Positions 9,204 through 53,937 of a stretch of 59,450 nucleotides of DNA are shown here, in pieces. The translations under genes were made by a program, and so were the position numbers. Origin of the DNA: Deltaproteobacteria bacterium (GTDB lineage: Bacteria > Desulfobacterota > Desulfobacteria > Desulfobacterales > Desulfobacteraceae). Within the stretch, counting starts at the first letter, position 1. Every line of letters begins with the position of its first letter. The notes below the pieces were generated by a model, which was not told where the DNA came from, made no database searches, and saw only the letters and a program-made list of their open reading frames with translations. The DNA is taken from NCBI GenBank assembly GCA_013151635.1, contig JAADHV010000048.1, positions 1 to 59,450 of the forward strand, in the 5' to 3' direction.

Positions 9204-9219
9204 AGGAAGGTCAGGTTTT

Positions 9220-31156: not shown

Positions 31157-32845
31157 ATGTCATTAATGTCTAATTCTGTTAAAAATTTTTCAATCGGCAA
31201 GAAACTGTTTATTGCATTTGGCCTGATTTGCCTGTTATTTGGTGTTGCCGGGATTGTAATCGGCAGGTCAACCCATGCGATCAATAATTCCATCGAGAAG
31301 GTGGAAAATGAAATTTTACCCAATACCATGAACTTTATTGAGATTAAAAAAGATATCCTTCAGGCCCAGGAGTGGTTGACGGACATTGCAGCGACAAGAG
31401 CAGCCAAGGGATATGATGACGGGTATGGTGAAGCAGAAAAGTATTTCAATGATGCTGTGAAAAGGGTTGAATTTGCTATTAAAGAGTATGAAGCCTATGG
31501 AGATAAAGATATGGTGGCCCTCTTAAGAAAAATGCAGGAAAGCCTTGATGCCTATTACAAAGTGGGTAAAGAGACGGCCCAGGCTTATATTGACGGCGGG
31601 CCTGAAAAGGGTAACCCCATGATGGATAAATTTGATCCCTATGTTGAAAAACTATCCGGCATCATTGATAAATTTGATAAAGACCATCAGCAGAAACTTA
31701 ATCACTCATTCCGTGAAATATCCGCACAAAGCAGCAGTGCAATAAAAATGTTAATTATATTAATTGTCGTTGTACTTGTTTTTTCTGTTCTGATTGCCCT
31801 TTTTATATCCTCTGATATTAAAACCAGGGTGAACTTAATCAAAGAGGCTTTTTCAAAATCCGCCCAGGGAGATCTTACAGCTACGGTTAACTCTGATGCA
31901 AAAGATGAAATCGGTATTATTTCAGACGGATACAATGCATTTATTGCCCAATTGTGTGAATTGATCAAAAATATTATTCAAAGTGCTGAAACCATTACAG
32001 GATCATCCACCCGATTATCCTCTGTCTCCCAGAAGATGTCTGATAAATCCGTACAGACATCAGAAAATGCCAATACAGTTGCAGCAGCAGCCGAAGAGAT
32101 GAGTACGAATATGAACAGTGTTGCCTCTGCAACAGAACAGACAACCGCTAATCTCCAGATGGTTGTTTCTGCTGCTGAAGAAATGACGGCAACTATTCAG
32201 GAAATTGCAAACAATACAGCTAAAGGCAGTGAGATCACACAGGATGCGGTTAATCATGCCAAAATGGTATCAGGCAAGGTTGACGAGCTTGGTAAGGCCG
32301 CTCAGGAGATAAGCAAGGTTACGGAGAGTATTTCCGATATCTCTGAACAAACAAATTTGCTGGCCTTGAATGCGACAATAGAGGCTGCAAGGGCCGGGGA
32401 AGCGGGTAAGGGATTTGCCGTTGTAGCTGGGGAAATCAAGGTGCTTGCCCAGCAGACAGCAGAGGCCACGCTTGAAATTAATTCAAAAATATCAGGTGTT
32501 CAAAATACAACAAAAGAATCAGTCGCTGCAATAAAAACCATCGTGGATGTCATTAATGAAATAAATGCAATTGTAACAACCATTGCAACAGCCATAGAAG
32601 AGCAGTCAGCTACCACTAAGGAAATTTCAAACAATGTCAGCCAGGCAGCTTCCGGTGTCCAGGAAGTAAACGAAAATGTAAACCAGGCATCAGCAGTTAC
32701 AGGAGAAGTGACCCGGGATATCGCAAATATCAGCCAGGCCGCAGACGAAATGAATACGGACAGTGATACGGTTAATCAAAGCTCCCGGGAACTTCTAAAA
32801 CTTGCAGAGGACCTCAATGAAATGGTGAGTCAATTTAAAATTTAA
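31157..32845 (+). CDS. Methyl-accepting chemotaxis protein
   Basis: This 562-residue chemoreceptor has a transmembrane helix at about 16-37, a four-helix-bundle-type periplasmic sensor of about 150 residues, a second membrane helix at about 196-217, HAMP and a signalling domain. The tip reads [25 protein letters not shown] precedes ATG 31157. The 294-base gap to the divergent PAS protein gene contains no sigma-54 match that I can see. The last bases overlap the convergent aminotransferase gene by four bases. Confidence 0.93.
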
Positions 32846-34095
32846 AGTTGACAGTCATTTATGAAAGATAAAGATTCATCAATGGCTTTTAAGGCCAGGT
32901 CCAGGTCTTCATCAGTGTGGCGATAACTTATATATGCATGGTGAAAGGGAGTGAAAAATATACCTTTCCGGATAAGCTGGGTGTAAAAATCCTTTCGTTT
33001 GCGCTTGTACCCGCCTTGTTCATCCTTTTTAAAGGTGATGTAGAACATGGGGCCTAGACCTGTAAGCTCAGCCCCTGTATCATATTTATCAATCGCGGCC
33101 CTGATGCCTTTCATGAGGTGTTCGCCTTTTTTCCTGATAGCTTCCAGCACATTGTCCCGTTCCAGTATTTCAATGGTTTTAAGCGCGGCAACAAAGGCTT
33201 CGCTGTTTGGGAAAAAAGTGGAAGAAATAAATAATTTTGATTCTGCCGCCATCATGACATCTTTAATACCTGTCACGACCGATATGGGATATCCGTTGGC
33301 CATGGCTTTTCCAAGAACCGTTAGATCCGGGGTGACACCATAAAGTTTCTGGGCACCGCCCATTGAAAGCCTGAAACCGGTTCTTATCTCGTCATAGATC
33401 AGGACTGCACCGTATTTGTCGGCAATCTGCCTTGCCCCTTCAAGGAAACCCCTGGCCGGAACCTGCATTTTCTGATGGTTTGGATGGCCAAAAGGGGTCA
33501 TGATGATGGCCGCGGTATCATTGCCATGGGTGGCCATTAAATCTTCAAGCTGGTCAAGGTTGTTGTATTGGAATTCAAAGACATCTTCATAGAATTTTGA
33601 CGGAATGCCTCCCTTCATTTCAACGCACCAGTCATGCCATCCGTGGTAACCGCAGCGCATGACCTTGAGTTTGCCGGTATGGGCTCGCGCAATGCGGATA
33701 CTGGCTGTTGTGGCATCAGAACCGGTCTTAAGGAAAATACTCATTTCAGCGCAGGGTACAATTTGGCTGAGCTTTTTGGCAAGCTCATTTTGAAATTTCT
33801 GGGTCAGGGTGAAACAGAACCCTTTTTCTTTTATCTGCCTGAAAACCGCTTCATCCACTTCATCCTCACGATACCCAAGGATGATAGGGCCGTAACCGCA
33901 TAAAAAATCAATAAATTCATTGCCGTCAACATCAGTCAGGCGGCAGCCTTTGCCTTGATCAAGAAAAATCGGGTATTCCCCGGCAATAAAATCCCCAGGC
34001 TTTCTTGCTCCTAAAACCCCTCCGGGGATAAGGGTTAATGCCTGTTCATACAATTCAAGGCTTTTTGTAATGGTAAGTTTTTTTGTCCCCTGCAT
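32842..34095 (-). CDS. Class III aminotransferase (glutamate-1-semialdehyde aminomutase-like)
   Basis: This 417-residue PLP enzyme has the cofactor Lys263 in [11 protein letters not shown], Asp235 in LIYDEIRTG and the phosphate-binding [13 protein letters not shown]. The closest general layout is HemL, but its position as the last gene of a long catabolic set argues against tetrapyrrole synthesis. It may instead move an amino group between an amino acid or amine intermediate and an aldehyde or keto acid. GGAGG precedes the start. It lies 15 bases after the saccharopine-dehydrogenase-like gene. Confidence 0.88.
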
Positions 34096-36537: not shown

Positions 36538-37350
36538 TCAATGATTATATTTTTTTAAAACAGCTTCCAGGACACTGCCTCCTATTGCCCGTGCTTTTTC
36601 CGAGATTGTATTGCAGTAAAGCCTGTTCCCCCTGGGATCAATATCCCCTATTTTAAGCTTTTCATTCACCATGGTGTTGTTTCTTATCTTCCCTCTTAAA
36701 ACACCGTTTATCTGTGAAATAACCGGCTGGTTGTCAACATGCCCGATCACATCGTTTTTTTTAACCAGGGTGCCGATGGACAGAGAAGACTTGAATATGC
36801 CGGAGCATGGGGCGCGAAGAACCCTTTCGCTGGTATATCCTGCAATATTGCCGGGAGTTCCGGTGTTGGGCTCGGGTTGACCTTTTAAAATAAGTCTTCC
36901 AAGGTTATGGCCCCGGTTGGTTTCTATCGCCATGTGAACGTCTCTGCCAGCTTCAAATCCGGGTCCAAGCCCTATAACCAGGGGAGCTTCAAGCATATTT
37001 GTCCCAAGATTTTTTTTGGCGATAATGGCATCAATCACCACATGGGGCCGGATAACTTTTATACACTCCCAGTCCGGGTCAACCATGACAGGGATACAAT
37101 CGTTTTCCCAGGCAGTCCGGATGTCATCTGCTTGAAATGCTTTTTTGGCCTCAACTCCTTCCACCGTGATCTTGTCATCGTGGATAGCCTCGGAAAAAGA
37201 AGCCTGCCTTCTTACAGCCATGGGATTTTTTATTTCCATCATGAAGATGTTTTTAAAATTTGATTGGAAAAGGCGGCAGGCAATGCCGGTAGCCATTTCT
37301 CCCGCCCCCTTTACAGCAATTATAAGTTTTGTGAGATTTTTTATTTCCAT
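36538..37350 (-). CDS. yqeB: YqeB/EF2563-type molybdenum hydroxylase accessory protein
   Basis: The 270-residue product has a Rossmann-like start (AVKGAGEMATGIACRLFQ) and a C-terminal domain with RAPCSGIFKS. It matches the EF2563/YqeB family found with selenium-dependent molybdenum hydroxylases, where it is thought to help insert labile selenium or finish the cofactor. It lies 27 bases after a molybdopterin-binding-domain gene and downstream of two molybdenum hydroxylases. The genome uses selenium, as the SelW-like gene shows. No strong ribosome-binding site is visible at the chosen ATG. Confidence 0.82.
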   Translation of the reverse strand: MEIKNLTKLIIAVKGAGEMATGIACRLFQSNFKNIFMMEIKNPMAVRRQASFSEAIHDDKITVEGVEAKKAFQADDIRTAWENDCIPVMVDPDWECIKVIRPHVVIDAIIAKKNLGTNMLEAPLVIGLGPGFEAGRDVHMAIETNRGHNLGRLILKGQPEPNTGTPGNIAGYTSERVLRAPCSGIFKSSLSIGTLVKKNDVIGHVDNQPVISQINGVLRGKIRNNTMVNEKLKIGDIDPRGNRLYCNTISEKARAIGGSVLEAVLKKYNH

Positions 37351-37377: not shown

Positions 37378-38397
37378 TTATCTGCCGAATGAACAGACAG
37401 GATAATGGCAGACTTTGCAGTTCATGCACAATCCGCCATGCCCCATGGCTGCAATATCGTCTTCCTTGATTTTTTCTCCTGCAAGAACCCTTGGGAAAAT
37501 CAGGTCAAACACTGTTTGTTTGTAATAAAACACGCATGCCGGCAGGCTGATAACAGGTATCTTGTCAAGCATTGAAACCATGAGCATGGCCCCGGGAAGA
37601 ACAGGGCTCCCGTAAAATGTAACCCTGGCCCCTGTCTTTATCACCCCGTTACGGGTAACATCATCCGGGTCAACAGAAAGCCCTCCTGTGGTAATGATCA
37701 GCTCACACCCAAGATGTTTTAATTTAAGAATTGCGTTGGAAATGGCTTTTACCTCATCCGGCACAAGGGTTTTTTTAACGAGTGTACACCCTGCATCTGT
37801 TATTTTTTTGCCCACGGACGGGCCGAAGTCATCTGTAATCAGACCGTTAAAGACTTCAGAACCGGTTACTACCGCACCCACTTTCAAGGATCTGTATGGT
37901 TTGACAGAAAGAATGGTTCCTGTCTCTTTTGCCAGTGTTTCCAGAGCTTTGATGTTTTTTGCAGGAATGGTCAATGGAATGATCCGTGTGGCTGCAATGA
38001 TTTCTCCCTTTTTGCAGGGAAAATTGTTTTTTAAAGTGGCCACAATAATGCTCTCCATCTTATTTACCCGGAGCAGGGCATCAACATTGATTTTTAACAG
38101 GCCTGCATGGTTGGTACTTATATTGATTTTACCTTCCCGGGGTTCGGAAAATTCCAGGTCATTGCCTGAGATGGCACCTGCTATCTTCCTTGCTGCGTCA
38201 TCTTCATGGAGCGTATCTTTTTCAAGGTCAAGAACATAAAGATACTGCTTCCCGATCTTTAAAAGCTTTGGGATATCTTCTTTTTGTACAATGTGCCCTT
38301 TTTTAAATCCAACTCCTTTAAATTTTCCCCGGATGATCCTGGTCATGTCATGGGCGAGAATAGTTCCAACAGCATCTTCAACTTTGATTTTTTTCAT
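37378..38397 (-). CDS. Molybdopterin-binding protein with C-terminal cysteine cluster
   Basis: This 339-residue protein contains a MoaB/Mog-type molybdopterin-binding domain in its second half (GAVVTGSEVFNG, ITTGGLSVDPDD, SPVLPGAMLM). It is related to MoeA but shorter. The tail ends with CMNCKVCHYPVC, a CxxCxxCx4C cluster that could hold an iron-sulfur centre or metal. Proteins of this kind accompany xanthine-dehydrogenase-family operons and probably modify or deliver the cofactor. It overlaps the end of the large-subunit gene by 20 bases, indicating translational coupling to the second molybdenum enzyme. Confidence 0.82.
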   Translation of the reverse strand: MKKIKVEDAVGTILAHDMTRIIRGKFKGVGFKKGHIVQKEDIPKLLKIGKQYLYVLDLEKDTLHEDDAARKIAGAISGNDLEFSEPREGKINISTNHAGLLKINVDALLRVNKMESIIVATLKNNFPCKKGEIIAATRIIPLTIPAKNIKALETLAKETGTILSVKPYRSLKVGAVVTGSEVFNGLITDDFGPSVGKKITDAGCTLVKKTLVPDEVKAISNAILKLKHLGCELIITTGGLSVDPDDVTRNGVIKTGARVTFYGSPVLPGAMLMVSMLDKIPVISLPACVFYYKQTVFDLIFPRVLAGEKIKEDDIAAMGHGGLCMNCKVCHYPVCSFGR

Positions 38398-40663
38398 TTT
38401 TTTCCTTGATGGCCAAAAGGATTTTATCCGGTGTTAAAGGAAAAGAGTCCATGTATACGCCAATGGCATTGCTGACTGCTGCGCTATAGCCTTGAGCCGC
38501 TGACATGGCAATGGACATTCCGGCTTCCTTGGCCCCGTAAGGGCCTTTGGGATCAACAGATTCCACAATTATATTATTGATTTTCGGCATGTCACAGGCC
38601 AGCGGCAGTTTATAATCAAGCATTGTCGGATTGATACACCTGCCGTCCTTCCATTCATGGTATTCGGTGAGCATGCCGCCTTGTCCGCCCATTGCGACGG
38701 AACCTTCAAACTGGCCCTCTAAAACCAGGGGGTTCAAGGCATATCCCACATCCTGGGCCGCGGTCACTTCCAGAACGTCAACCTTTCCTGTTTCAGGGTC
38801 CACCTTGACTTCAACAATGGTGGTGCCGAATGAAAAAGCTTCACACATCTGGCCGTATGGGTTTTTGACCCATTCACGTTTCATGTCAACTTCAGGCCAG
38901 TAGCCTCCTTCGGCATTGACGGAATTAAAATTCAAAAGGCTGATTCTCACCACCTTTTTAATGGTGATGGATTTTTCAGGATCGTCTTTTACAAAAATAA
39001 GGCGGTTCCTGGCCGCAAGCTTTTCAGGCCCAACCTTTAACACTTTTGCGGCCACTTTAAAAAGTTTTTCCCGGCAGTTCCGTGCTGCAATCTTAACAGC
39101 GTGGCCGCCTACAAAGGTTGAAACCTGGGAGTAAGAGCCAGGGTCAGAAGATGTGGTCTCGGTATCTGCTGAAACAAGGTGGATGTCTTCTGGTAAAAGC
39201 CCCAGTTCTTCGGCTGCAATCTGGACAAGCATATTGTCATTGCCCTGGCCGTTGTCCACTACCCCTGACATGACCGTTGCCTCGCCATCTTCATTGAATT
39301 TTATAAAACTCTGGGACCCGCCGCGGATACCCATGGGGAATCCTGTCTGAACTGAATTTGTGCCGATACCGATACCGTGGAAGGGCGGCAGCTTTCCCCA
39401 TTTTTCCTTGAACCCTGATTTTTTCACGGCCTTTAAAATGGTTTCATCCATGGCACAGGAGGAGACAAAAGATTTTGTACTGGTATAGTCTCCCGGCTGG
39501 CGGGAATTTCTCAGGCGTATTTCCACAGGGTCAATACCAAGGTGGTCTGCAATCATGTCAAGCTGGGTATCAAGACCTGCGGCAAAACCACGCCCATGAA
39601 CCCTTATCATGCCCCGGATGGGTTTGTTGGTATAAACCCTGTACCCGTTGTACCGTACACTTCCCATGCGATAGGCCTGTTCCATGGAAAGAAAGGGCAC
39701 GCTTGCGGCAATGGGACCGGTGCTGGAATATGCGCCCCCGTCCATATAGCAGGTGGTTTCACGGGCAAGAACCCTTCCGTCCTTGTCCACCCCTGTTTTA
39801 TGGGTGGTGATCATGGCATGTCCCTGGCGGGTTGCAATGGTGTTTTCCTCTCTTGTAAACTCTATTTTTACAGGTTTGCCGGTCTTTTTTGCCAGGAGAG
39901 CACAGATATAATCTGCCGGGCATATCTCAGAGCGTCCCCCGAATGCCCCGCCAATGGCAACTTTCTTGATTTTCACCTTGTGAAGGGGAATTTTAAATGC
40001 ATTTGAAAGGGGTTTGGACTTCATGTGGGGGCCGCCGTTGGGACAAAAGACTTCCAGGCAGTCTTCATGGTCAAACCTTGCCATGACAGCATAAGGTTCG
40101 GCCTGGAAATAGGACTCTTCCGGTGCCACAAAGGTGTCTTCCCGGACATAATAGGCTTTTTCAAAATTTTCATCCACGTTTCCGGTATCAATGTTTACAT
40201 GGACATTAATATTGTCTGGAAAGTCCTCATGGATAAGTTCTGTTTTAGATGCCATGGCTTCCATGGGGTCAAAGACCGCGGGCAGTTGTTCGTACTCAAC
40301 TTCTATAAGATCAAGGGCTTTAAGGGCTGTCTCTTCATCCACAGCAGCCACACCTGCCACCTCATCTCCTATATATCTTGCTTTTTCAACCTGAATAAAC
40401 TGCTGGTCACGGGTATAGGCAAATACTCCCCATTTGGTTCCATTTGTATCCTTACCTGTGACAACAGCCTTGACTCCCGGAAGTGCCAGGGCTTTTGATG
40501 TGTCAATATCCAAGATACGGGCGTGGGCATGGGGGCTTCTTTTGATTTTTCCTACGAGCATGCCGGGCAGTTTCAGGTCGGCCGTAAATTTTGCCTTTCC
40601 CATAACTTTTGCCCTTGAATCAACTCTTGGCATCCTTTTGCCTATTATGGTGTAATCAGACAT
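38378..40663 (-). CDS. Molybdenum hydroxylase large subunit, set 2 (catalytic Glu replaced by Met)
   Basis: This 761-residue xanthine-oxidase-family molybdopterin subunit has typical cofactor loops: IGGAFGGRS, HGRGFAAG and DNGQGNDNM. In the active-site loop near the C-terminus, where the family reads KG(I/V)GE, this protein has GAKEAGMSI. Met716 thus stands in place of the catalytic glutamate (Glu1261 of bovine xanthine dehydrogenase; retained as Glu719 in set 1 of this window). It forms a three-gene enzyme with the 2Fe-2S and FAD subunits upstream. The FAD subunit is of the 4-hydroxybenzoyl-CoA reductase type, so a reductive reaction on an aromatic CoA ester is a possible role. This is inference. 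Confidence 0.88.
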   Translation of the reverse strand: MSDYTIIGKRMPRVDSRAKVMGKAKFTADLKLPGMLVGKIKRSPHAHARILDIDTSKALALPGVKAVVTGKDTNGTKWGVFAYTRDQQFIQVEKARYIGDEVAGVAAVDEETALKALDLIEVEYEQLPAVFDPMEAMASKTELIHEDFPDNINVHVNIDTGNVDENFEKAYYVREDTFVAPEESYFQAEPYAVMARFDHEDCLEVFCPNGGPHMKSKPLSNAFKIPLHKVKIKKVAIGGAFGGRSEICPADYICALLAKKTGKPVKIEFTREENTIATRQGHAMITTHKTGVDKDGRVLARETTCYMDGGAYSSTGPIAASVPFLSMEQAYRMGSVRYNGYRVYTNKPIRGMIRVHGRGFAAGLDTQLDMIADHLGIDPVEIRLRNSRQPGDYTSTKSFVSSCAMDETILKAVKKSGFKEKWGKLPPFHGIGIGTNSVQTGFPMGIRGGSQSFIKFNEDGEATVMSGVVDNGQGNDNMLVQIAAEELGLLPEDIHLVSADTETTSSDPGSYSQVSTFVGGHAVKIAARNCREKLFKVAAKVLKVGPEKLAARNRLIFVKDDPEKSITIKKVVRISLLNFNSVNAEGGYWPEVDMKREWVKNPYGQMCEAFSFGTTIVEVKVDPETGKVDVLEVTAAQDVGYALNPLVLEGQFEGSVAMGGQGGMLTEYHEWKDGRCINPTMLDYKLPLACDMPKINNIIVESVDPKGPYGAKEAGMSIAMSAAQGYSAAVSNAIGVYMDSFPLTPDKILLAIKEKNEKNQS

Positions 40664-40666
40664 TTT

Positions 40667-41164
40667 TTACTCCTTTGTTTTGCAGTCAGGGCAATGCTCC
40701 CGGGGGTTCCCGGCATGGGCCACGGCTTCAACAATCTTTGCATAGCCAGTACACCTGCAGATGTTTCCTGCCAGGGCCTTTCGAATGGTTTTTTCATCAG
40801 GTTCCGGGTTTTCTTTTAGCAGAGCGTCTGCTGACATGAGCATGCCTGGAGTGCAGAACCCGCATTGGACAGCCCCGTGGTCGATAAACGACTCCTGTAA
40901 ATCAGACAGTTCATCCCCGTCGGCAAGGCCTTCCACTGTTTTGATTTTGCACCCCCTGGCCTCCAGGGCCAGGGTCAGGCAGGACCGGACAGGCCTGCCA
41001 TCCATTTGAACAGTGCATGACCCGCAGACACCTTCACCGCAGCTCTCCTTTGATCCGGTAAGGTCCAGTTCGTCCCGCAATACTTCTAAAAGGGTGTTAT
41101 TAGGGGCTGCAAAGACCTCAAAGGGTTTATCATTTATATCCAAGGTGATTTTTATTTTTTTCAT
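40667..41164 (-). CDS. Molybdenum hydroxylase 2Fe-2S subunit, set 2
   Basis: This 165-residue electron-transfer subunit has two [2Fe-2S] sites: a plant-ferredoxin-type site (CGEGVCGSC plus a later Cys in RSCLT) and the family-specific helical site (CGFC and CRCTGY). Length and motifs match the small subunits of xanthine dehydrogenase-family enzymes. It carries electrons between the molybdenum centre and the FAD/4Fe-4S subunit encoded 25 bases upstream. The large-subunit gene follows after 3 bases. Confidence 0.93.
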   Translation of the reverse strand: MKKIKITLDINDKPFEVFAAPNNTLLEVLRDELDLTGSKESCGEGVCGSCTVQMDGRPVRSCLTLALEARGCKIKTVEGLADGDELSDLQESFIDHGAVQCGFCTPGMLMSADALLKENPEPDEKTIRKALAGNICRCTGYAKIVEAVAHAGNPREHCPDCKTKE

Positions 41165-41189
41165 TTTAAAAACACTCCAAAATTGTCTT

Positions 41190-42197
41190 TTATTGTTCAG
41201 CCTTTATTGCTGACCGCGCTGCTTCTTCAAGTGCACGAAATACCATGGTGGAAACCATTTGGCACCTGTATTCAAGACTTGCACCTATATTATGAACGGC
41301 AAATGCCGCAGCACTGTCCATGGAAGCCCGGGAAGCCTTTTTAAAGGCATTGGTATCGTTAATGCTTTTTCCTTTTAAAGAAGATGAAACCTTGGCAAGG
41401 AAAAGAGGAGATCTTCCCATGGCGCCCACAACGATCCTTGCGTCCCTGATTTTATTTTTCCGGTCCGGTTTTATTAAAACGCCTGCACAGACAATGGGGT
41501 AATCAATGGCGGAGCGGCAGGCAAGGCGATGGTATGCACTTTTTGCCCCCTTAAGGGGGATGATGATTTCTTTTAACAGTTCATTAGGTTCCATGGCATG
41601 CGGCATGATGCCGTCATTTGAATAAAAATTGACCAGATCAATTGTTCTTTTTTTGTCTTTTTTTACCAGGGTAACGGCGGCATTAAGGGCCATGAGAGCC
41701 GTGGCACCGTCCGACTGGCAGGTTGAGTTGCACCTGTCAGATTCATCCCTTGCATAACAGATTTTCCCCCCGTCCTTGTGACAGGCTTGACGTCCGGACC
41801 TGTGGAAGGCTGACTGGTTGTAGTGATGGCACCTGTTGTCCTGGAGAATGTTGCCGCCGATGGTGCCCCTGTAATGCTGGATGGTGACGGCCCCGGTTTT
41901 TTCGCAGGAAGAGGCCAGGGCTTTGGCCTCTTTTTGTATGAGATCAGAAGCGATTATATCTGCAATAGGGGTTTTGGCCCCGATTTTAATATATGAATCT
42001 TCTTTTTTAATATAGGATAATTCTTTCAAGGCTTTGAGGCTGATAATAATTTTTGGTTTTAAAAGCCCTTTTTTCATCCTGACCAGAAGATCAGTCCCGC
42101 CTGCAAGGATTTTTGCATCATCCCCGTGGGTGGACAGGAGGTCACAAGCCTCCTTGATAGAGCCGGGCTCTAAATATTCAAACCTTGGTAACCGCAC
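41190..42197 (-). CDS. FAD subunit with [4Fe-4S] insertion (4-hydroxybenzoyl-CoA reductase beta-like)
   Basis: This 335-residue FAD-binding subunit shows the flavin motifs AGGTDLLVR and GTIGGNI. Between them and the C-terminal domain lies an insertion of about 40 residues with Cys123, Cys139, Cys147 and Cys156. The spacing (16, 8 and 9) is identical to Cys122, 138, 146 and 155 that bind the extra [4Fe-4S] cluster in HcrB of 4-hydroxybenzoyl-CoA reductase. In that enzyme the cluster lets low-potential electrons flow inward to reduce the substrate. Ordinary xanthine-dehydrogenase FAD subunits, such as the one at 47899, lack it. Translation starts at GTG after AAGGAG. Confidence 0.9.
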   Translation of the reverse strand: MRLPRFEYLEPGSIKEACDLLSTHGDDAKILAGGTDLLVRMKKGLLKPKIIISLKALKELSYIKKEDSYIKIGAKTPIADIIASDLIQKEAKALASSCEKTGAVTIQHYRGTIGGNILQDNRCHHYNQSAFHRSGRQACHKDGGKICYARDESDRCNSTCQSDGATALMALNAAVTLVKKDKKRTIDLVNFYSNDGIMPHAMEPNELLKEIIIPLKGAKSAYHRLACRSAIDYPIVCAGVLIKPDRKNKIRDARIVVGAMGRSPLFLAKVSSSLKGKSINDTNAFKKASRASMDSAAAFAVHNIGASLEYRCQMVSTMVFRALEEAARSAIKAEQ

Positions 42198-45128: not shown

Positions 45129-47411
45129 TTAATTGTTTTTCTCCTTTAAAGCGGCCAGCACTTTTTCAGGGGTGATGGGAAGATCATAAATCCTAACACC
45201 AACAGCATCATAAATCGCATTTGCAATGGCCGGGGCCGTGGGAACACATCCTGGTTCTCCTATCCCCTTGGCACCAAAAGGGCCGTCCTTGTCAGGCGTT
45301 TCAAGGACAGGCGCTTTGATTTTTATGGCGTCCTTGGCTGTAAACAATTTATAGTCCCTGAAATTGGCATTCATGTTTTTTCCTTTTTTATGCACCACTT
45401 CTTCTGTCAGTGCATAACCAAGCCCCATGACCACACCGCCGTAGACCTGGCCTTCAAGGAGCAGCGGGTTAATGGCCCGGCCCACATCATGAGCTGCCAC
45501 ATATTCAAGGACTTCAACCTTACCGGTTTCTACATCTACTTTTACTCTTACCCCGTGGACACCAAAGGTATAGGTCATGGACATATTTCCCTTGAATTCC
45601 TTCCCCAGGTTTTCATTATCAGGATCATAGAAAAAATCAGCCATGAGCATGGTTCCGCCAGGGGAAAAATGAGCCTTTCTTAAAAGTTTGTCTATTGCCA
45701 TCTTTTTTTCATTGTCACCAGGGACAAATATGAGCCTGTCCCTTAACACCAGGTCGCCTGGGTCTGCATCCAGGATTTTTGATCCGAATTCCAGGAGTTT
45801 TTCTTTTACCTTTTTAGCAGCTCCAAGCGCTGCGTTCCCGGCCACAAAGGTACTGCGGCTGGCATGGGCACCCACATCCCACGGGCAGACATCAGTATCC
45901 GTATGGACCACATTGATATCTTCGGCAAAAAGCCCAAGCTCTTCTGCCACGATCTGGGCCGTGATATTGTCAAGCCCCTGGCCCATATCAGTACCGCCGG
46001 TGAAAATATCCACCTTGCCGTAATCATCCATTTTTAAAATGGCACCGCAGCCGTCAGACTTGTAAATCCTGGCGCCGCCGCCGACATGGATCAGGGAGGC
46101 AATACCAATGCCGACCCCTTTTTGTTTTATATTGTTTTCCTTAAGTTCTTTTTCAACTGTATCAAGGCACAGGTCCAGTCCGCAGGTTGTTATCTTAAAT
46201 TTCTGGGGGGTAACATCCCCTGGATGGTTGCGGTTAATCCTGCGAAATTCAATAGGATCTATGCCTGCTTTTTCTGCCAGCATGTCCATACTGCTTTCAA
46301 TTGCAAATGTGGCCTGGGGATTCCCATACCCTCTCATGGCCTGGGAATATGTATTGTTTGTATAGACACATTTTGCACTGTACCTGACATTTTTTACCCT
46401 GTAAAGAGATGTGACAGGCATCATCATGACAGAAGGGGTCGTGGCACCCCAGGAGGTATAGGCCCCGTTATCCAGGATCATTTTAATGTCCCTGAACAAT
46501 AGCTTGCCGTTTTTGTCACACCCTTGCCTGATGTCGATTATGGCTGGCTGGCGCGTGGAAGTTGCCTTGAATTCTTCCTGCCTGTCAAAGGTGAGCTTAA
46601 CAGGTTTCCTGCATTTATGGGCCAGGAGAATTGCAATATGTTCATAAGCATATGTATCAAGCTTGCTGCCAAAACCACCGCCGATAACAGGTTTGATGAC
46701 TCTTGCCCTTTTGTTTTCAAGACCCATGGCTTTTAGTGCCTCTAAAAAATCTTTCTGGGCAAGAGAAGGGATTTGTGTGTTGGTGTAGATGGTCAGGTTA
46801 TCGTTTGCATCAAACAATGCAACAGCCCCGCTGGTCCCAAGACAGCAATGGGTGACCCATGTGGTGGAAAACCTGTCTTCAACTGTGAAAGCAGCTTTTT
46901 CCCCGGCTTTTTCCACGTCCCCGTAGTGAAGTTTCCACGGAAGCTTTAAAATATTTGTTTTGTTTTTTTCATGAACCAGGGGGCTGTCTTTTTTCATGGC
47001 TTTTTCAGGATCAAATATACCTTCTAATTCTTCATATTCAATTTCAATGAGACTAAGGGCTTTCCTGGCAATTTCAGGACTTTTTGCAGCAACAGCGGCA
47101 ACTTCATCTCTAAAGGAGCAGACCTTGCCCTTTTTTATGGGCGGGTTGTCCTTATAAAATCCCATTTTCATTTTCCCCGGGATATCCTCACCCGTCAGGA
47201 CTGCGTGGACCCCGGGCAAAGCCACGGCTTTTGATGTATCTATTTTAATGATATTTGCATGGGCATAGCTGCTGTAAAGGATTTTTCCGTAGACCATGCC
47301 TGGAAGTTTAATGTCCTGGATATACTCTGCCCTTCCCATGGCTTTCAAGGAGGCGTCAAGTTTTGGAATCCGCTTGCCAACGACACTCAGATCGCTTTTT
47401 AATTCATTCAT
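45129..47411 (-). CDS. Molybdenum hydroxylase large subunit, set 1
   Basis: This 760-residue molybdopterin subunit of the xanthine oxidase family is expected to hydroxylate an activated C-H or ring position with water as oxygen source. The cofactor loops IGGGFGSK, MRGYGNPQ and DMGQGLDN are canonical, and the catalytic Glu719 is present in GAKGIGEPG. It thus appears competent, unlike set 2. It forms a heterotrimer with the 2Fe-2S subunit upstream (four-base overlap) and the FAD subunit. In an indoleacetate-type pathway it would hydroxylate C2 of the indole ring, but this assignment rests on context only. Confidence 0.9.
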   Translation of the reverse strand: MNELKSDLSVVGKRIPKLDASLKAMGRAEYIQDIKLPGMVYGKILYSSYAHANIIKIDTSKAVALPGVHAVLTGEDIPGKMKMGFYKDNPPIKKGKVCSFRDEVAAVAAKSPEIARKALSLIEIEYEELEGIFDPEKAMKKDSPLVHEKNKTNILKLPWKLHYGDVEKAGEKAAFTVEDRFSTTWVTHCCLGTSGAVALFDANDNLTIYTNTQIPSLAQKDFLEALKAMGLENKRARVIKPVIGGGFGSKLDTYAYEHIAILLAHKCRKPVKLTFDRQEEFKATSTRQPAIIDIRQGCDKNGKLLFRDIKMILDNGAYTSWGATTPSVMMMPVTSLYRVKNVRYSAKCVYTNNTYSQAMRGYGNPQATFAIESSMDMLAEKAGIDPIEFRRINRNHPGDVTPQKFKITTCGLDLCLDTVEKELKENNIKQKGVGIGIASLIHVGGGARIYKSDGCGAILKMDDYGKVDIFTGGTDMGQGLDNITAQIVAEELGLFAEDINVVHTDTDVCPWDVGAHASRSTFVAGNAALGAAKKVKEKLLEFGSKILDADPGDLVLRDRLIFVPGDNEKKMAIDKLLRKAHFSPGGTMLMADFFYDPDNENLGKEFKGNMSMTYTFGVHGVRVKVDVETGKVEVLEYVAAHDVGRAINPLLLEGQVYGGVVMGLGYALTEEVVHKKGKNMNANFRDYKLFTAKDAIKIKAPVLETPDKDGPFGAKGIGEPGCVPTAPAIANAIYDAVGVRIYDLPITPEKVLAALKEKNN

Positions 47412-47884
47412 TTTTGTCCTCCCATATCCCTTGCTGCTTCAACAGATTCCAGGATCTGTACATAACCTGTACACCTGCAAATGTTTCCTGCAAGGGCATG
47501 TTTGATCTGTTCATAGTCAGCACCAGGGTTTTCATCAAGCAAAGCCTTGGAAGACATGATCATGCCGGGTGAACAAAAACCGCACTGGATACCTCCATTG
47601 TCAACAAAAGACTGTTGGACAGGATGCAGGGTGCCGTCGCTTGAGGCAAGCCCTTCAATGGTTTCTATGGTTTTCCCGTCTGCTTCGACAGCAAGATAGA
47701 GGCAGGAATTTATGGCAAGCTTATCAACAATAACAGTGCAGGCGCCGCATTCACCATTGCCGCATCCTTCTTTTGTCCCGATAAGCCCCATTTTTTCCCT
47801 TAAAAGGTGTAACAGGGTCCAATGGTCCTTGACCTCGTATGAGATCTCGTCACCATTTAATATAAAAGATATGTTTGTCGCCAT
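47408..47884 (-). CDS. Molybdenum hydroxylase 2Fe-2S subunit, set 1
   Basis: This 158-residue small subunit has two [2Fe-2S] binding sites: CGNGECGAC plus a Cys in NSCLYL, and CGFC with CRCTGY. It is of normal family length. It sits between the FAD and large-subunit genes, with 14 bases to the former and a four-base overlap with the latter, and passes electrons from the molybdenum site to FAD. Confidence 0.93.
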   Translation of the reverse strand: MATNISFILNGDEISYEVKDHWTLLHLLREKMGLIGTKEGCGNGECGACTVIVDKLAINSCLYLAVEADGKTIETIEGLASSDGTLHPVQQSFVDNGGIQCGFCSPGMIMSSKALLDENPGADYEQIKHALAGNICRCTGYVQILESVEAARDMGGQK

Positions 47885-47898: not shown

Positions 47899-48780
47899 CT
47901 AATTGTTATTCCTAATTAGTTCCAGGCATTTTTGACCCATTCTTTTTACCTGGACCCGGATCATTTCCTTCCTGTGCCAGGCTTTTCCCCTGACACTGTC
48001 CCTGACTTTTGATTCATCAGCCGCAATTCTGCCGGCCTTGACCAGGGTTTCTTCATTTATTTCTTTTCCTGCAAGAAATTTTTCCGCATCAAACGCCCTC
48101 ATGGGAACAGGGGCTGCAACCCCCAGGCAGATTCTTGCCTTTTTGCAAATCTTACGGGCATGATCAAGGGTTAAAAGAACCCCTATGCCGACCAGAGGAA
48201 GTTCCATGGCAGCCCTTCTGCCAAATTTGATATAGGCACTGCCCGTATAAGGCTCCTGCGGCGGGATCGTAATTTTTTTTAAGATTTCCCCGGGTTTTAA
48301 AATGGTTTTATAAGGCTTTATAAAAAGATCCTTTACACTGGCAGACCTTTCACCGTCAGGGCCGTGAAGAAGAGCTACCCCGTCCAGGGCTATCAATGGG
48401 ATGGCACCGTCAGCCGACGGCACGGCATTGATAAGGTTGCCGCCGATGGTCCCCACGTTCCTTACCTGCAAAGATCCGATATTGGAAACCGCGTCATAAA
48501 TAATAGGGTACTCTTTTTGAATCATGATGGATTTTTCCAGGGTGGCATGAGTGACCATGGCACCTATGGAAAGCTCGCCTGTGGCATTATTTTTAGAAAG
48601 CTCGCCCATTTCTTTGATTTTTTTCAGGGAAATCAAAAAGTCAGGTTCCATCCATCCCTCTTTGAGTTTTACAATAACATCTGTTCCCCCGCCGATAAAT
48701 CTGGATGTCTCGCTGTGCCGGCCATGGAAAGCAATGGCCTCTTCAACACTTTTTGGGGATAAATATTTAAATGCTTTCAT
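47899..48780 (-). CDS. Molybdenum hydroxylase FAD subunit, set 1
   Basis: This 293-residue CoxM-type FAD-binding subunit carries the flavin motifs FIGGGTDVIV and GTIGGNL. It lacks the cysteine-rich [4Fe-4S] insertion present in the set 2 counterpart, so it should behave like a conventional dehydrogenase with electrons flowing outward. It begins the three-gene enzyme set and lies 15 bases after the CoA ligase gene. Confidence 0.91.
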   Translation of the reverse strand: MKAFKYLSPKSVEEAIAFHGRHSETSRFIGGGTDVIVKLKEGWMEPDFLISLKKIKEMGELSKNNATGELSIGAMVTHATLEKSIMIQKEYPIIYDAVSNIGSLQVRNVGTIGGNLINAVPSADGAIPLIALDGVALLHGPDGERSASVKDLFIKPYKTILKPGEILKKITIPPQEPYTGSAYIKFGRRAAMELPLVGIGVLLTLDHARKICKKARICLGVAAPVPMRAFDAEKFLAGKEINEETLVKAGRIAADESKVRDSVRGKAWHRKEMIRVQVKRMGQKCLELIRNNN

Positions 48781-48795: not shown

Positions 48796-50085
48796 TCAGC
48801 TTCGGTTATCAAAGATACGCCGGGCCTTGCCCGCATACCTTGGCAGTTCACCGTATCCTAATATGCTGGCATCACAGCTTACCATGATTTTTGATTGTAT
48901 GGTTTTCCTTATTTTGTCCCTGGTATCTGCGGTATTATCAGGATCAACCCCCTGCTTTACCTCTGCCTTGATTGTCATATAGTCTTTACCGTCATCCTTT
49001 CTTTCAAGATGGATCTGGTATTCACTGCCCACTTCAGGAATTGATGACAATACCTCGTCAATCTGGCCGGGATAGATGTTGACACCCCTTAAGATGATCA
49101 TGTCATCGGAACGTCCCATGATTTTGTCATGCATGAAAAGAATATTACCGCAGGAACAGGGTTTGGTAATTTTGCGGGTGAGATCCCTTGTCCTGTATCT
49201 TATCAGCGGTGCTGCCTCTTTGCAAAGGGTGGTTACAACCATTTCCCCGACTTCTCCGTCTTCAACAGGCTCTAAGGTTTCAGGATCGAGTATTTCAAGG
49301 ATAAATTTGTCCGCCCAATAGTGAATCCCTTCGTGCATGGGGCAGTCAAGTCCGGTCCCGGGCCCGTAAAGTTCTGTCATGCCGGTAATGTCAAACATGT
49401 CTTCCAAACCCATCAGTTCTTTTATTCTGGCCCGCATGGCAGAAGAGCTTCGTTCCGAACCCAGGATCATTTTTTTTAAATTAATCTTGTCTGAAATTCC
49501 CCGCTTGTTGATTTCTTCTGCCATGAGAAGCGCCATGGATGCGGTACAGCAAAATACTGTGGACTGAATGTCCACTAAAAACTGGCATTGCATGTCTATG
49601 TTGCCGGGGCCCACCGGCACAGCCATGGCACCCAGTCGTTCACATCCGAGCTGGAATCCCATGCCGGCTGTCCAGACACCGTAGCCCACTGCGATCTGCA
49701 CCCTGTCATTCCCGGTGACACCTGCCATTTCATAGCACCTTGCAAACATGTCACACCATACGTCAAGATCTTTTGCAGTATAAGCCAGCACTTTTCTTTT
49801 TCCTGTCGTGCCGGAGGAGGCATGGATCCTTACCACGTCTTTTTCAGATACGGACAAAAGGGGTAAAGGATATCCGTCCTTTAGATCTTTTCCCGTGGTA
49901 AAAGGAAGAGCCGAAATATCATCAAGGGATTTTATGTCCAAAGGTGTCACACCTGCTTCTTCAAATTGTTTCCTGTAAAAAGATGACCCGTTGTAAGCGT
50001 GGGAAACCGTCCATTTAAGCCCTTTCAGTTGATGGTCAAAAAGCTGCCCTGTGTCCTTGAACCCGGGCATAAAGGTTTTTTTCAT
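48796..50085 (-). CDS. Phenylacetate-CoA ligase-family enzyme
   Basis: This 429-residue AMP-forming ligase of the PaaK branch activates an aryl-acetic or related acid with ATP and CoA. The motifs ASSGTTGKRK, ITGMTELYGPG and RSDDMIILRGVNIYP are all present, and the length is exactly that of PaaK. I chose ATG 50085 because AAGGGGG precedes it and the protein then starts at the family N-terminus; the longer frame would overlap the hydantoinase gene. In the iaa pathway of denitrifiers a PaaK-like ligase acts on indoleacetate or its product, which is the main reason for the proposed role. Confidence 0.9.
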   Translation of the reverse strand: MKKTFMPGFKDTGQLFDHQLKGLKWTVSHAYNGSSFYRKQFEEAGVTPLDIKSLDDISALPFTTGKDLKDGYPLPLLSVSEKDVVRIHASSGTTGKRKVLAYTAKDLDVWCDMFARCYEMAGVTGNDRVQIAVGYGVWTAGMGFQLGCERLGAMAVPVGPGNIDMQCQFLVDIQSTVFCCTASMALLMAEEINKRGISDKINLKKMILGSERSSSAMRARIKELMGLEDMFDITGMTELYGPGTGLDCPMHEGIHYWADKFILEILDPETLEPVEDGEVGEMVVTTLCKEAAPLIRYRTRDLTRKITKPCSCGNILFMHDKIMGRSDDMIILRGVNIYPGQIDEVLSSIPEVGSEYQIHLERKDDGKDYMTIKAEVKQGVDPDNTADTRDKIRKTIQSKIMVSCDASILGYGELPRYAGKARRIFDNRS

Positions 50086-50104
50086 TTTTTGCCCCCTTAA
50101 ATTC

Positions 50105-51835
50105 TCAATTATTTTTTTCACGGAGTTGCAGGGTCGCGGGAAGATCAAGTTTCAGAGAGTCAGGTTCAATAATAACGCCGTAATCAAATTCTGCTTTTTC
50201 AATGCTTACAAACCCGTATTGCACATCTTGTTCAACAGCCTTGGGATCACGTTCAAAAGGGTTCCCGTACCCGCCTCCGCCGGCACTTATAAAGGTGATC
50301 CTGTCACCGGGGTCACAAAAGGTAAGGCCGCTTGGGTCTGCATTATCTTTGTTTTTAAGGAATCCTGCCTTTGATCCGTCCCTGCCTTTGAATATGCCCC
50401 GGGGCGGATAAACAAACCTGCCGGCCTGGACTGCAATGGTGGTCCTTCCGGGTGAATTGCCGCCGTCATCAGGGCTTTTGACGATCATTTGCCGGCCGAT
50501 ACCGCCCCTTTGTTTTCCAGGGCCCCCGGAATCCGTGACAAGGCTTCTTTTTTCAATGATTAAAGGTGTATCGCTTTCAAGGATTTCAACAGGTGTGTTG
50601 GCCCCGTTGGCAGGGAATATGGCACAGTGGTGGCCGTCAAACCGGGAAGAAGCTCCCATGCCTCCGCCACGTATAATCATGGTGTGCCATGGTTTTCCAT
50701 TGGCCCTTTTGCCGTAAAGGATATTTGTCTGGGCAGGGGTTCCGCCGGAGCCTGCAATGATATTATCCGGTGTTGCCAGGGACAGGGCATTAAATACCAT
50801 CTCGGTCATAAAATGGCCCACCTGCATCCTGGCTGCCACGGCTGCCGGAAAAGTGCAGTTAATAATGCAACCTTCCGGAGCAGTCATTTTAACGGGCCGG
50901 ATGGCACCTTCGTTAATGGGAATGTCCGGGTCAAAGGCCGACTTTATGGCCATGAATACATAAGCATAGGTAAAATTGTAGACCACGTTGACCCCCCAGT
51001 CTACCTGGGGGGAAGTGCCGTTAAAGTCTACTTTTATGTCTGATCCTTCAACATTGACAGCCAGTTTGATTTTAATGTCCGGCCTTTTGCCCGCACCTTC
51101 TATAATGCCTTCATGGGCATAGGTGCCGTCAGGGATTTTTTCAATTGCCAGGCGCATGCTGGCCTCGGTCCTGCCAATGATTTCATCGGCCAGATCGTCC
51201 AGGGTATCAAGACCCTCGTCTTCCAGCATTTCAATGATTTTTCCGGCGCAGACATGGTTGGCCGCCACCTGGGACCGTATGTCGCCCGTGACTTCTTCGG
51301 GTGTCCTCACATTCCAGCGGATCATATTTAAGAGATCTTTGTTGAGTTTTCCTGCATCATAAAGCTTTGTTACAGGAATATATATGCCTTCTTCAAACAC
51401 TTCCCTGTTGTCTGAAGAAACCCGCCCCCCGATATCGGAGTGGTGAAAAACGCATGCCGTGAATGCCACAGGTTTTTCCTTGTAAAAGATGGGGCTTAAA
51501 ACACAGACATCATTGAGATGCCCTGCAAGGAGCCAGGGGTCATTAACAATAAGAACATCTCCTTTTTTATAATTTTCAAGGGGAATTAAATTGACGACCT
51601 TTTTTACACCCAGGGCCATGGCACCTGCCTGGCCCGGTGTGCAGAATGTTCCCTGGACAAGTTCCTGTCCGCGACTGTCCGTGAACATGCAGGTATAGTC
51701 ATGGGCATCCCTTAAGAGACTTGAAAATGCTGTTCTTGCAACTGATGCATCTGCCTCGTCCACAATAGAGACAAGTCTTCGCCATAAAATTTCCAATGTA
51801 ATGGGGTCAAATTTTGTTTTTGTTTTATTTATCAT
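50105..51835 (-). CDS. hyuB: Hydantoinase B / 5-oxoprolinase-type beta subunit
   Basis: This 576-residue HyuB-family subunit forms the ATP-dependent cyclic amidase complex with HyuA. The N-terminal DPITLEILWRRLVSIVDEAD, NDPWLLAGHLNDV and the C-terminal glycine-rich AGGGGYGNPFERDP are diagnostic. These enzymes open lactam or imide rings (N-methylhydantoin, 5-oxoproline) or carboxylate ketones. Its ATG overlaps the HyuA stop by four bases. In an indoleacetate-like pathway HyuAB would open the 2-oxindole ring. Confidence 0.9.
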   Translation of the reverse strand: MINKTKTKFDPITLEILWRRLVSIVDEADASVARTAFSSLLRDAHDYTCMFTDSRGQELVQGTFCTPGQAGAMALGVKKVVNLIPLENYKKGDVLIVNDPWLLAGHLNDVCVLSPIFYKEKPVAFTACVFHHSDIGGRVSSDNREVFEEGIYIPVTKLYDAGKLNKDLLNMIRWNVRTPEEVTGDIRSQVAANHVCAGKIIEMLEDEGLDTLDDLADEIIGRTEASMRLAIEKIPDGTYAHEGIIEGAGKRPDIKIKLAVNVEGSDIKVDFNGTSPQVDWGVNVVYNFTYAYVFMAIKSAFDPDIPINEGAIRPVKMTAPEGCIINCTFPAAVAARMQVGHFMTEMVFNALSLATPDNIIAGSGGTPAQTNILYGKRANGKPWHTMIIRGGGMGASSRFDGHHCAIFPANGANTPVEILESDTPLIIEKRSLVTDSGGPGKQRGGIGRQMIVKSPDDGGNSPGRTTIAVQAGRFVYPPRGIFKGRDGSKAGFLKNKDNADPSGLTFCDPGDRITFISAGGGGYGNPFERDPKAVEQDVQYGFVSIEKAEFDYGVIIEPDSLKLDLPATLQLREKNN

Positions 51836-53937
51836 TTCTCACCCCTTGATTTTATCAGTTTGATCCAGATAAATCCGAAATTATCAACCTTGGCACGGGC
51901 ATCCTCGCCGATCACGATAGTGGATTCTCGTTCCTCGATAATGGCAGGACCCATTATTTTTGCTTTGGGAAAAAGTTTTGACCTGTCATAGACCGTGAAC
52001 GGGATATATTTTTTTTGAATAACGGAAAACGCCTGGCGTTCGCCTTTGATGCAGGCTTGAATGTCAGATGTTTCATTTTTGATTTCAGGTATTGAAAAAG
52101 GCTGTTTAGGAAGGCTTGCCCTTACCTTGAAAGTTACAAGTTCCACTGGTGTCTCAAGGTATGTCCTGCCGTAAAGCCTTTTGTATTCCTCGTCAAAAAG
52201 GTTCCGGACATCTTTTTTTGAAAATTCGTAAAAGGGTTTTTGTTCTATGGCAAGGTCTGTTTCAGCCCCCTGGCCCACAAACCGCATCAAAAGTGTCCGT
52301 TCAAAAATAATGTCCCGGCCTTTTGCAGCATCTTTTAAAATACCGGCGCTTTCTTCCTCGAGCTGTTTAAAAAGAGCTTCGATTTCCTTAAAGTCAGCAT
52401 CATCAAGGGTCACCCTGTGGCTTCTGGAAAGATCAAATGCCACAGGCGCCGTAAAAAAGCCCAAAGCCGACCCCACCCCTGCAAGGGGCGGAACAAGGAT
52501 GGAAGGCGCCCCGATTTTTCTTGCAAGTCCGTATGCATGAACAGGCCCGGCCCCGCCAAAGGCCGACATGGTCACCATGCCAGGATTGCCGCCTTTTTCC
52601 GCAATATGGGTTTTAGCCGCTGCTGCCATGGTTTCGTTGATAAGGTCATGGATGCCAAAGGCCGCCTCCACCATTGTTGTGCCCAGTGGCCCGGCTATTT
52701 TTTCCTGTATTGCTTTTTTAGAAAGTTCTATGTCAAGGTCCATGGTGCCGCCCAGGAAAAAATCAGGATCAAGATATCCCAGGACAAGGTCGGCATCGGT
52801 TACAGTGGGGTTGTCCCCGCCTTGTTTATAACATGCAGGCCCGGGGTCGGCTCCCGCGCTTTCAGGGCCTACCCCTAAAAGGCCGAGCTTGTTGATCTTT
52901 GCAATGCTTCCGCCGCCGGCCCCGATTTCCATTAAGTCCACAACAGGGACCTGTATGGGAAGGCCGCTGCCTTTTTTAAATCTCTGGACACGCCCGACTT
53001 CAAATGTGGAAACAAGGCCTGCATGGCCTTTCTGGATAAGGCAGGATTTTGCGGTTGTGCCACCCATGTCAAAACAGAACATGTCCTTGATATCAAACAT
53101 CCTGCCATAATGCTGGGATGCGATTACGGCAGCCGTGGGGCCGGATTCTATGATCCTGACCGGAAATTCCCTTGCTGTCTCAACTGAAGTTATTCCCCCT
53201 GAAGAGAGCATGATGAAAAGTTTGCCCTTAAAGTCCATGGATTCAAGTCTTGTGGTGAGTTTTTCAAGGTACCTGTATGTAATCGGTTTAACATAGGCAT
53301 TGACTGCCGTGGTGCAGGTCCTTTCATACTCCCTGATCTGGGGAAGCACTTCAAATGAAGTTGATAAAAAAAGCTCCGGAGCCTCTTTTTCAATAATTTT
53401 CTTTATTTTTTTTTCATTTACCGGGTTTTCATAGGAATTGATAAAGCAGACAGCCAGGGATTCAATACCAGAAGCCTTTAATTTTTCAAGAACCTCAATC
53501 ACCTCTTTTTCATCCACATCCTTTAGCTTTGTACCGTCGGATCTGAGACGCTCATCAATTTCCATGCGAAGCGTCCTTGGTACAATCGGTTCCGGGTATT
53601 CACTGAAGATGTCATAGGCATCGTAGCGTATTTCTCTTCCAAGTTCCAGCACGTCCCTGAAACCCTTTGTGGTTATAAGCCCTGTTTTCGCGCCTTTTCT
53701 CTCGATGATCGCGTTAATGACAAGGGTGGTCCCGTGAATCACCTCTTCAACAGAATCCATGAAACCCGGAATTTTGTCACTAAGCTGTCTGATTCCCTGT
53801 TCCACGGCATCAGACGGGTCTGAGGGCGTGGTCAGGCATTTATTAGTATAAAACTGTCCGGTTTCATTATTTACAAGAACAAAATCTGTAAAAGTGCCGC
53901 CAATGTCACAGCCCAGACGGTAAGTCCTTTGGTCCAA
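51832..53937 (-). CDS. hyuA: Hydantoinase A / 5-oxoprolinase-type alpha subunit
   Basis: This 701-residue HyuA subunit has the ASKHA-type ATP-binding signatures GCDIGGTFTDFVLV at the N-terminus and FDMGGTTAKSCLI in the middle, so it couples ring opening or carboxylation to ATP hydrolysis. Length is normal for the family. The B12 mutase large-subunit gene ends 19 bases upstream. Acetone and acetophenone carboxylases share this fold, so a carboxylase role cannot be excluded, but those normally bring an extra small subunit that is absent here. Confidence 0.9.
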   Translation of the reverse strand: MDQRTYRLGCDIGGTFTDFVLVNNETGQFYTNKCLTTPSDPSDAVEQGIRQLSDKIPGFMDSVEEVIHGTTLVINAIIERKGAKTGLITTKGFRDVLELGREIRYDAYDIFSEYPEPIVPRTLRMEIDERLRSDGTKLKDVDEKEVIEVLEKLKASGIESLAVCFINSYENPVNEKKIKKIIEKEAPELFLSTSFEVLPQIREYERTCTTAVNAYVKPITYRYLEKLTTRLESMDFKGKLFIMLSSGGITSVETAREFPVRIIESGPTAAVIASQHYGRMFDIKDMFCFDMGGTTAKSCLIQKGHAGLVSTFEVGRVQRFKKGSGLPIQVPVVDLMEIGAGGGSIAKINKLGLLGVGPESAGADPGPACYKQGGDNPTVTDADLVLGYLDPDFFLGGTMDLDIELSKKAIQEKIAGPLGTTMVEAAFGIHDLINETMAAAAKTHIAEKGGNPGMVTMSAFGGAGPVHAYGLARKIGAPSILVPPLAGVGSALGFFTAPVAFDLSRSHRVTLDDADFKEIEALFKQLEEESAGILKDAAKGRDIIFERTLLMRFVGQGAETDLAIEQKPFYEFSKKDVRNLFDEEYKRLYGRTYLETPVELVTFKVRASLPKQPFSIPEIKNETSDIQACIKGERQAFSVIQKKYIPFTVYDRSKLFPKAKIMGPAIIEERESTIVIGEDARAKVDNFGFIWIKLIKSRGEK

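Follow-up and report, generated by a model that had tools for sequence, protein, structure and literature searches.

We describe a molybdenum enzyme of the xanthine oxidase family, here named XO2, in which a methionine (Met716) occupies the position of the catalytic glutamate. The enzyme is encoded on the minus strand at 38378–42197 of contig JAADHV010000048.1 (assembly GCA_013151635.1, a Deltaproteobacteria bacterium); the window referred to below is positions 1 to 59,450 of this contig. XO2 would be an enzyme of a strictly anaerobic indoleacetate pathway, most likely one that reductively deaminates 2-aminobenzoyl-coenzyme A (CoA) to benzoyl-CoA, and we put the probability of this at about 0.5. 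A second enzyme of the same family, located 3 kb away, is named XO1. The three subunits of XO2 are as follows.

38378–40663, minus strand: large (molybdenum) subunit, P0001, 761 residues; PF01315, PF02738 and PF20256; Met716 replaces the catalytic glutamate
40667–41164, minus strand: small [2Fe-2S] subunit, 165 residues; PF00111 and PF01799
41190–42197, minus strand: FAD subunit, 335 residues, GTG start; HcrB-type four-cysteine insert; PF00941 and PF03450

Architecture and cofactor binding

The Pfam scan finds the domains of the xanthine oxidase family complete, with the hammerhead domain, two molybdenum cofactor-binding domains, and the [2Fe-2S] and FAD subunits. The best match among solved structures is 4-hydroxybenzoyl-CoA reductase (HBCR; E = 4.5e-129 for the large subunit and 1.7e-34 for the FAD subunit). 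The predicted model of the large subunit (mean pLDDT 86.9) superimposes on that enzyme with a TM-score of 0.94 at 2.2 Å. In the FAD subunit, C123, C139, C147 and C156 align with the cysteines of HcrB in 1rm6 and have the same spacing (16, 8, 9), as the original prediction, made from the DNA letters alone, had claimed. Of the 66 aligned FAD subunits from XO2 loci, 64 have the complete set of four cysteines. They were counted by alignment; a pattern of exact spacing alone misses 12 FAD subunits. The two exceptions are L121, where the first cysteine is absent from the alignment at a contig end, and L083, which is unaligned over the first two. The four-cysteine insert is not present in the FAD subunit of XO1.

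The stretch GPYGAKEAGMS of XO2 aligns without gaps with GPFGAKEASEG of HcrA and places Met716 in the column of Glu726; the replacement of the catalytic glutamate, which was also part of the original prediction, is thus borne out at the level of the alignment. Judged by sequence alignment rather than in three dimensions, XO2 lacks the glutamate beside the molybdenum that marks members of the family. The other four large subunits of the family in the same genome all keep it.

Loss of the catalytic glutamate

The residue was read in the best 80 of 172 relatives, the set of named genomes to which all counts over 80 loci refer. Among the 78 that are readable, 72 have methionine, 6 have leucine and none has glutamate. 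In the other two (L099 and L140), the sequence ends before the position, and the glutamate found there belongs to the neighbouring XO1 paralogue. A pooled set was made by adding the loci of further genomes and merging near-copies at 97% identity (201 reduced to 171 rows). The survey of close homologues proposed with the original prediction, in which retained glutamate would have refuted that prediction, gives a uniform result: all 96 non-redundant proteins at least 47% identical to P0001 have methionine (77) or leucine (19) and none retains glutamate, which rules out random decay or a sequencing error at position 716. At the same column, 75 other family members have glutamate (71), glutamine (3) or leucine (1).

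The tree was calculated with FastTree from 93 rows after further thinning, with the glutamate column left in; it is midpoint-rooted and has no bootstrap. The methionine and leucine proteins form one clade (39 rows, local support 99), joined by the long-branched L236 with support 82, and within it the methionine proteins form a single group (support 95). HcrA, itself on a long branch, falls in a different, glutamate-bearing branch. That leucine preceded methionine is one reading of this tree; given the midpoint root and the lack of bootstrap, the tree is not a test of that order. Further positions (Y185, N209, R233, M352, F360, G363 and Q605) reach 90% conservation or more within the clade and differ in the rest of the family, and XO2 looks re-tooled rather than decayed. 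Overall, the sequences support a loss of the glutamate that is real, old and common to the whole sampled clade. Its carriers include strain NaphS2 (L086) and Dethiosulfatarculus sandiegensis (L137).

The only other glutamate nearby in the sequence, E713, is present in all 96 clade members. It was not gained by the clade, since HcrA and 37 of the 75 family members outside it also have this residue, and a substitute newly acquired at this position is ruled out.

Some relatives outside the clade also vary at this column. The large subunit of L236 (genome G177) shares 40% identity with that of XO2, has leucine at the glutamate column and branches just outside the clade; the glutamate-bearing L231 (G305) is the next branch after it. 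In L251, L255 and L259 (G071, G294 and G274), each stretch has two large subunits of the same family, one with glutamine (GAKEVGQGP) and one with glutamate, and the pair adjoins a four-cysteine FAD subunit.

The surrounding gene cluster

XO2 lies in an operon that looks like an indoleacetate (auxin) degradation cluster of the iaa type. The features on either side of it are the following, where bits are profile scores.

32842–34095, minus strand: class-III aminotransferase (AT), glutamate-semialdehyde-aminomutase-like; PF00202
34111–35259, minus strand: saccharopine-dehydrogenase-like protein (SDH); PF03435 and PF16653
35308–36501, minus strand: thiolase-like protein, possibly for the last step of β-oxidation; PF00108 and PF02803; in 17 of 80 homologous loci
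36538–37350, minus strand: YqeB, maturation of selenium-dependent molybdenum hydroxylases; TIGR03309, 355.7 bits (cut-off 220)
37378–38397, minus strand: MoeA/molybdopterin-binding-domain protein; PF00994
42226–45091, minus strand: tripartite ATP-independent periplasmic (TRAP) transporter dctM, dctQ and dctP; large permease TIGR00786, small permease and binding protein named by reading-frame sequence and gene order only
45129–47411, minus strand: XO1 large (molybdenum) subunit, keeps the glutamate (GAKGIGEPG); likely an indole-ring hydroxylase
47408–47884, minus strand: XO1 [2Fe-2S] subunit, named by gene order and reading-frame sequence
47899–48780, minus strand: XO1 FAD subunit, without the four-cysteine insert (domain scan and alignment)
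48796–50148, minus strand: PaaK-like CoA ligase, with a putative IaaB-like role; TIGR02155, 402 bits (below the cut-off of 646)
50105–51835, minus strand: HyuB/caprolactamase-β-like; PF02538; NF050157, 273.5 bits (below the cut-off of 1000)
51832–53937, minus strand: HyuA/caprolactamase-α-like; PF01968; NF050156, 545 bits (below the cut-off of 1000)
53957–55639, minus strand: B12-dependent acyl-CoA mutase, large subunit; PF01642; TIGR00641, 508 bits (cut-off 304)
55632–56030, minus strand: B12-dependent acyl-CoA mutase, small subunit; TIGR00640, 149 bits (cut-off 57)
56074–57018, minus strand: MeaB-type mutase chaperone GTPase; TIGR00750, 335 bits (cut-off 241)
57011–57700, minus strand: GntR/FadR-type regulator, named by sequence without a profile scan
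57697–58869, minus strand: IaaF-type acyl-CoA dehydrogenase, motif FLLYGGGTHE; best NCBIfam model NF042972, 331 of 640 bits

GGG in place of YEG is described, in a passage of PMC8360864, as the mark of IaaF, which acts as benzylmalonyl-CoA dehydrogenase when indoleacetate is degraded anaerobically. According to the same passage, members of the IaaF subbranch lie in operons together with other iaa genes; sulfate reducers and strain NaphS2 are mentioned by name. The protein at 57697–58869 has GGG and not YEG; in the NCBIfam scan of this protein no model scored over its cut-off. GGG occurs in 19 of 23 readable acyl-CoA dehydrogenase matches of XO2 loci (some organisms being included twice) and in 19 of the 20 that are at least 41% identical. 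The mutase subunits (IaaGH) and the CoA ligase (IaaB) are recognised at family level only, and the best named relatives of the HyuAB pair are caprolactamase subunits, which score below the cut-off. A class-III CoA transferase (IaaL-like) was not seen in the cluster of the window, which meets the window end in a partial EtfA-like gene (L154). At 9220–10359 the window has a class-III transferase, not compared with IaaL, that is part of a different operon; IaaL-like genes accompany XO2 in 15 of the 80 loci.

Related clusters near XO2 add a class-III CoA transferase, an electron-transfer flavoprotein and a methylmalonyl-CoA-epimerase-like protein. The last of these follows XO2 at L044:11150–11569 (TIGR03081, 86.5 bits, cut-off 115), has a match in 28 of 80 loci, and may epimerise a malonyl-CoA intermediate. 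At L103:12822–14333, just downstream of XO2, is a TrpB-like pyridoxal phosphate enzyme (NF009057, 733 bits, cut-off 366), and similar reading frames are found in L036, L058, L060, L062 and L072. A loose test of the flanks (E of 1e-8, 35% of length; the XO1 match of L076, for example, is only 28% identical) finds at least one iaa-type gene in 54 of 80 loci, with SDH in 30 and YqeB in 28. The window also has a separate plus-strand operon (406–10359), with genes named by sequence as a sigma-54-type regulator, a short-chain dehydrogenase/reductase, a thiolase-like protein, two acyl-CoA dehydrogenases, an AMP-forming ligase and the class-III CoA transferase.

Co-occurrence across genomes

Forty XO2-positive genomes, from at least 58 with an XO2 large subunit of at least 50% identity, were compared with 40 XO2-negative genomes that were hand-picked and have only a weaker match of the family; every genome in the comparison is at least 90% complete. 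An IaaF-type gene (LLxGGG) is present in 36 of the 40 XO2-positive and 10 of the 40 XO2-negative genomes. Four XO2-positive genomes are without it: in G142, G223 and G159 the best match lacks the motif, and in G232 there is no match of sufficient quality. Among the remaining 30 XO2-negative genomes, 19 were read and have no IaaF motif, 9 were not read at the motif and 2 have no match. As a marker of benzoyl-CoA degradation, the BamA-type ring hydrolase is found in 36 against 21 genomes (35 against 16 over the curated cut-off). A search of the genome that carries XO2 with PF01869 was too general to show a benzoyl-CoA reductase. Fisher tests give 4e-9 for IaaF, 4e-4 for BamA and 4e-8 for SDH; these values ignore kinship and hand-picking and overstate the association because the genomes were hand-picked and are related.

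An XO1 orthologue of at least 51% identity (51% in G035) is present in 38 of the 40 XO2-positive genomes (all except G142 and G356) and in 9 of the 10 XO2-negative genomes that carry IaaF; for nine of the 38, the alignment spans just about 540 residues. XO1 therefore accompanies the pathway with or without XO2, which makes XO2 an additional, separate step. The same distribution rules out XO2 as the sole indole hydroxylase.

Proposed reaction

XO2 would catalyse the two-electron reductive removal of the amino group of 2-aminobenzoyl-CoA, yielding benzoyl-CoA and ammonium. Electrons from a low-potential donor would enter via the [4Fe-4S] cluster and the FAD, in the direction that we infer, and would then pass through two [2Fe-2S] clusters to the molybdenum as in HBCR, the structure paper of which reportedly speaks of inverted electron flow in its title. 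A hydrophobic methionine or leucine would suit a reaction that proceeds without a base acting on a Mo-OH group, and the glutamate may have been exchanged because such a base is not wanted. The conversion of 2-aminobenzoyl-CoA to benzoyl-CoA is the only reductive reaction known in the pathway before benzoyl-CoA.

The anaerobic indoleacetate route leads to 2-aminobenzoyl-CoA, according to a passage of PMC9613470. As this is the end product of an iaa-type operon, the genes next to XO2 would make the proposed substrate. Since the known route ends there, a reductive enzyme at this place would most simply remove the amino group; one reductive reaction is needed to reach benzoyl-CoA, and XO2 is thus the best candidate in the operon for it. 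The anaerobic conversion by a 2-aminobenzoyl-CoA reductase is reported for Azoarcus evansii and a Pseudomonas strain in passages of PMC4539516 and PMC3737221. In the literature surveyed (titles, abstract openings and passages, with few full texts), no gene is named for this reductase and the XO2 clade is not described. The original prediction had suggested reductive deamination of 2-aminobenzoyl-CoA as a speculative role. This role gains from the neighbouring iaa-type genes, from which the substrate is expected; it does not account for the SDH-like/aminotransferase pair, which a simple deamination leaves over. The operon contains yqeB (over its curated cut-off) and the genome contains yqeC and selD, the genes expected with a selenium-dependent hydroxylase, so the molybdenum of XO2, or instead that of XO1, may carry selenium.

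Several observations weigh against this assignment. Ten of the XO2-negative genomes carry an IaaF-type gene. Three of them are probably assembly losses of XO2: the contig of G315 ends inside XO1, before the expected position of XO2; G023 retains the two small subunits of XO2 on a fragmentary contig piece; and in G050 the large subunit of XO2 is truncated, with leucine at the glutamate column. Seven remain, of which G170 is fragmentary. Of the 19 XO2-negative genomes read without an IaaF motif, six have GGG in another context at 35–40% identity, and counting them would raise the number to 16 of 40. The context is SRIGGG in five and LSIGGG in G254 (loci L206–L210 and L345, in G019, G093, G057, G150, G122 and G254); these acyl-CoA dehydrogenases are perhaps other enzymes without the YEG base. 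The BamA match is absent from 4 of the 40 XO2-positive genomes. In 15 of 80 loci, neither an iaa-type nor an SDH/AT gene was found; nine of these are contigs of less than 8 kb, and the other six (L108, L111, L127, L133, L134 and L136) span 11–22 kb. In Desulfatiglans anilini, a putative HBCR-like candidate for 4-aminobenzoyl-CoA is described in a passage of PMC7500099.

The SDH/AT pair presents a further difficulty. Deamination to benzoyl-CoA needs neither protein, and SDH (at least 60% identity) is present in 25 of the 40 XO2-positive and only 2 of the 40 XO2-negative genomes, one of the two being G050 with its cut XO2; outside XO2 genomes it is rarer than IaaF. The pair adjoins XO2 in both the methionine and the leucine lineages and in some genomes lies on other contigs, and a search of literature and annotation for its role found none. 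It could be an accessory part or a sign that XO2 serves another nitrogen compound. In the latter case, XO2, SDH and AT would form a module for an amine, an amino acid or an indole conjugate that travels together with the indoleacetate pathway. This would also suit the 11 of 80 loci with SDH/AT and no iaa-type gene, three of which (L085, L086 and L119) extend over 22 kb. We nevertheless consider such a module doubtful: SDH is absent from 15 of the 40 XO2-positive genomes while IaaF is present in 36, the pair sits beside a methylmalonyl-CoA-epimerase-like gene in L290, and in L221 and L224 it is located inside the iaa cluster.

Less probable still would be another reduction in the indoleacetate route, acting on an over-oxidised or hydroxylated indolic or aryl-CoA compound, with the amino group leaving later by other enzymes. 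The genomic linkage and the HBCR-type electron-input subunit fit this equally and an aminotransferase is nearby, but deamination is the one reductive step known before benzoyl-CoA. In addition, the substrate proposed for IaaF in a passage of PMC8360864, 2-aminobenzylmalonyl-CoA, is already past the indole ring. XO2 is very unlikely to be an ordinary oxidative hydroxylase in which water or another acid, such as E713, stands in for the glutamate. Its fold and cofactor domains are typical of the family and E713 is invariant in the clade, but, with the catalytic glutamate present in 71 of the 75 relatives, at least 33 of the 37 that have E713 must possess both, and the separate, glutamate-bearing XO1 accompanies the pathway.

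Reductive deamination of 2-aminobenzoyl-CoA stays our preferred assignment for XO2. More tentatively, and at somewhat less than even odds, the whole clade may consist of widespread and old reductive aromatic deaminases in which glutamate was replaced by methionine or leucine, possibly with selenium at the molybdenum, and may constitute a new reaction class that includes the missing 2-aminobenzoyl-CoA reductase. If a whole clade linked to a single catabolic pathway does without the hallmark glutamate, the same cofactor would support a second kind of chemistry, and there is a real chance that XO2 represents a new reaction class. If the assignment is true, the missing reductase is found, molybdenum enzymes gain a new class of reaction, and the path by which auxin is converted to benzoyl-CoA in anoxic sediments would be complete. 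The clade makes the question of the 2-aminobenzoyl-CoA reductase directly testable in named organisms (NaphS2 and Dethiosulfatarculus sandiegensis).

Comparison with known systems

The window shares with the iaa operon of Aromatoleum aromaticum the IaaF-type dehydrogenase with GGG, the mutase subunits and the CoA ligase, and the related clusters share the IaaL-like transferase. Beyond that operon, the window has XO2 (the presence of which in Aromatoleum was not checked), YqeB, the TRAP transporter, SDH and the aminotransferase. A further relative by description is Ucdh, the urolithin C dehydroxylase of E. bolteae (genus Enterocloster). A passage of PMC12771579 counts it, after HBCR, as the second member of the xanthine oxidase family that is a reductive dehydroxylase, and gives its identity to HBCR as 32.7%; unlike the reaction proposed for XO2, that of Ucdh removes a phenol hydroxyl group. 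The Desulfatiglans anilini candidate (03875/03876) is HBCR-like, and the passage of PMC7500099 proposes for it, as we do for XO2, the reductive deamination of an aminobenzoyl-CoA, although its putative substrate is the 4-amino isomer; this comparison too is by description.

The closest structural parallel is HcrABC of Thauera aromatica (1rm6), with which XO2 shares the three subunits, the large-subunit fold and the four-cysteine insert of the FAD subunit. In contrast to HcrABC, the XO2 clade has methionine or leucine for Glu726; XO2 is 35% identical to it, is located in another branch of the tree and scores below the cut-offs of TIGR03194 and TIGR03195 (632.6 of 994.55 and 192.5 of 404.55 bits). 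An assignment of XO2 as a plain HBCR thus fails on the cut-offs, the tree grouping and the glutamate. On these sequence comparisons, XO2 is HBCR-like in architecture and stands outside the HBCR family by score, by tree and by its catalytic residue.

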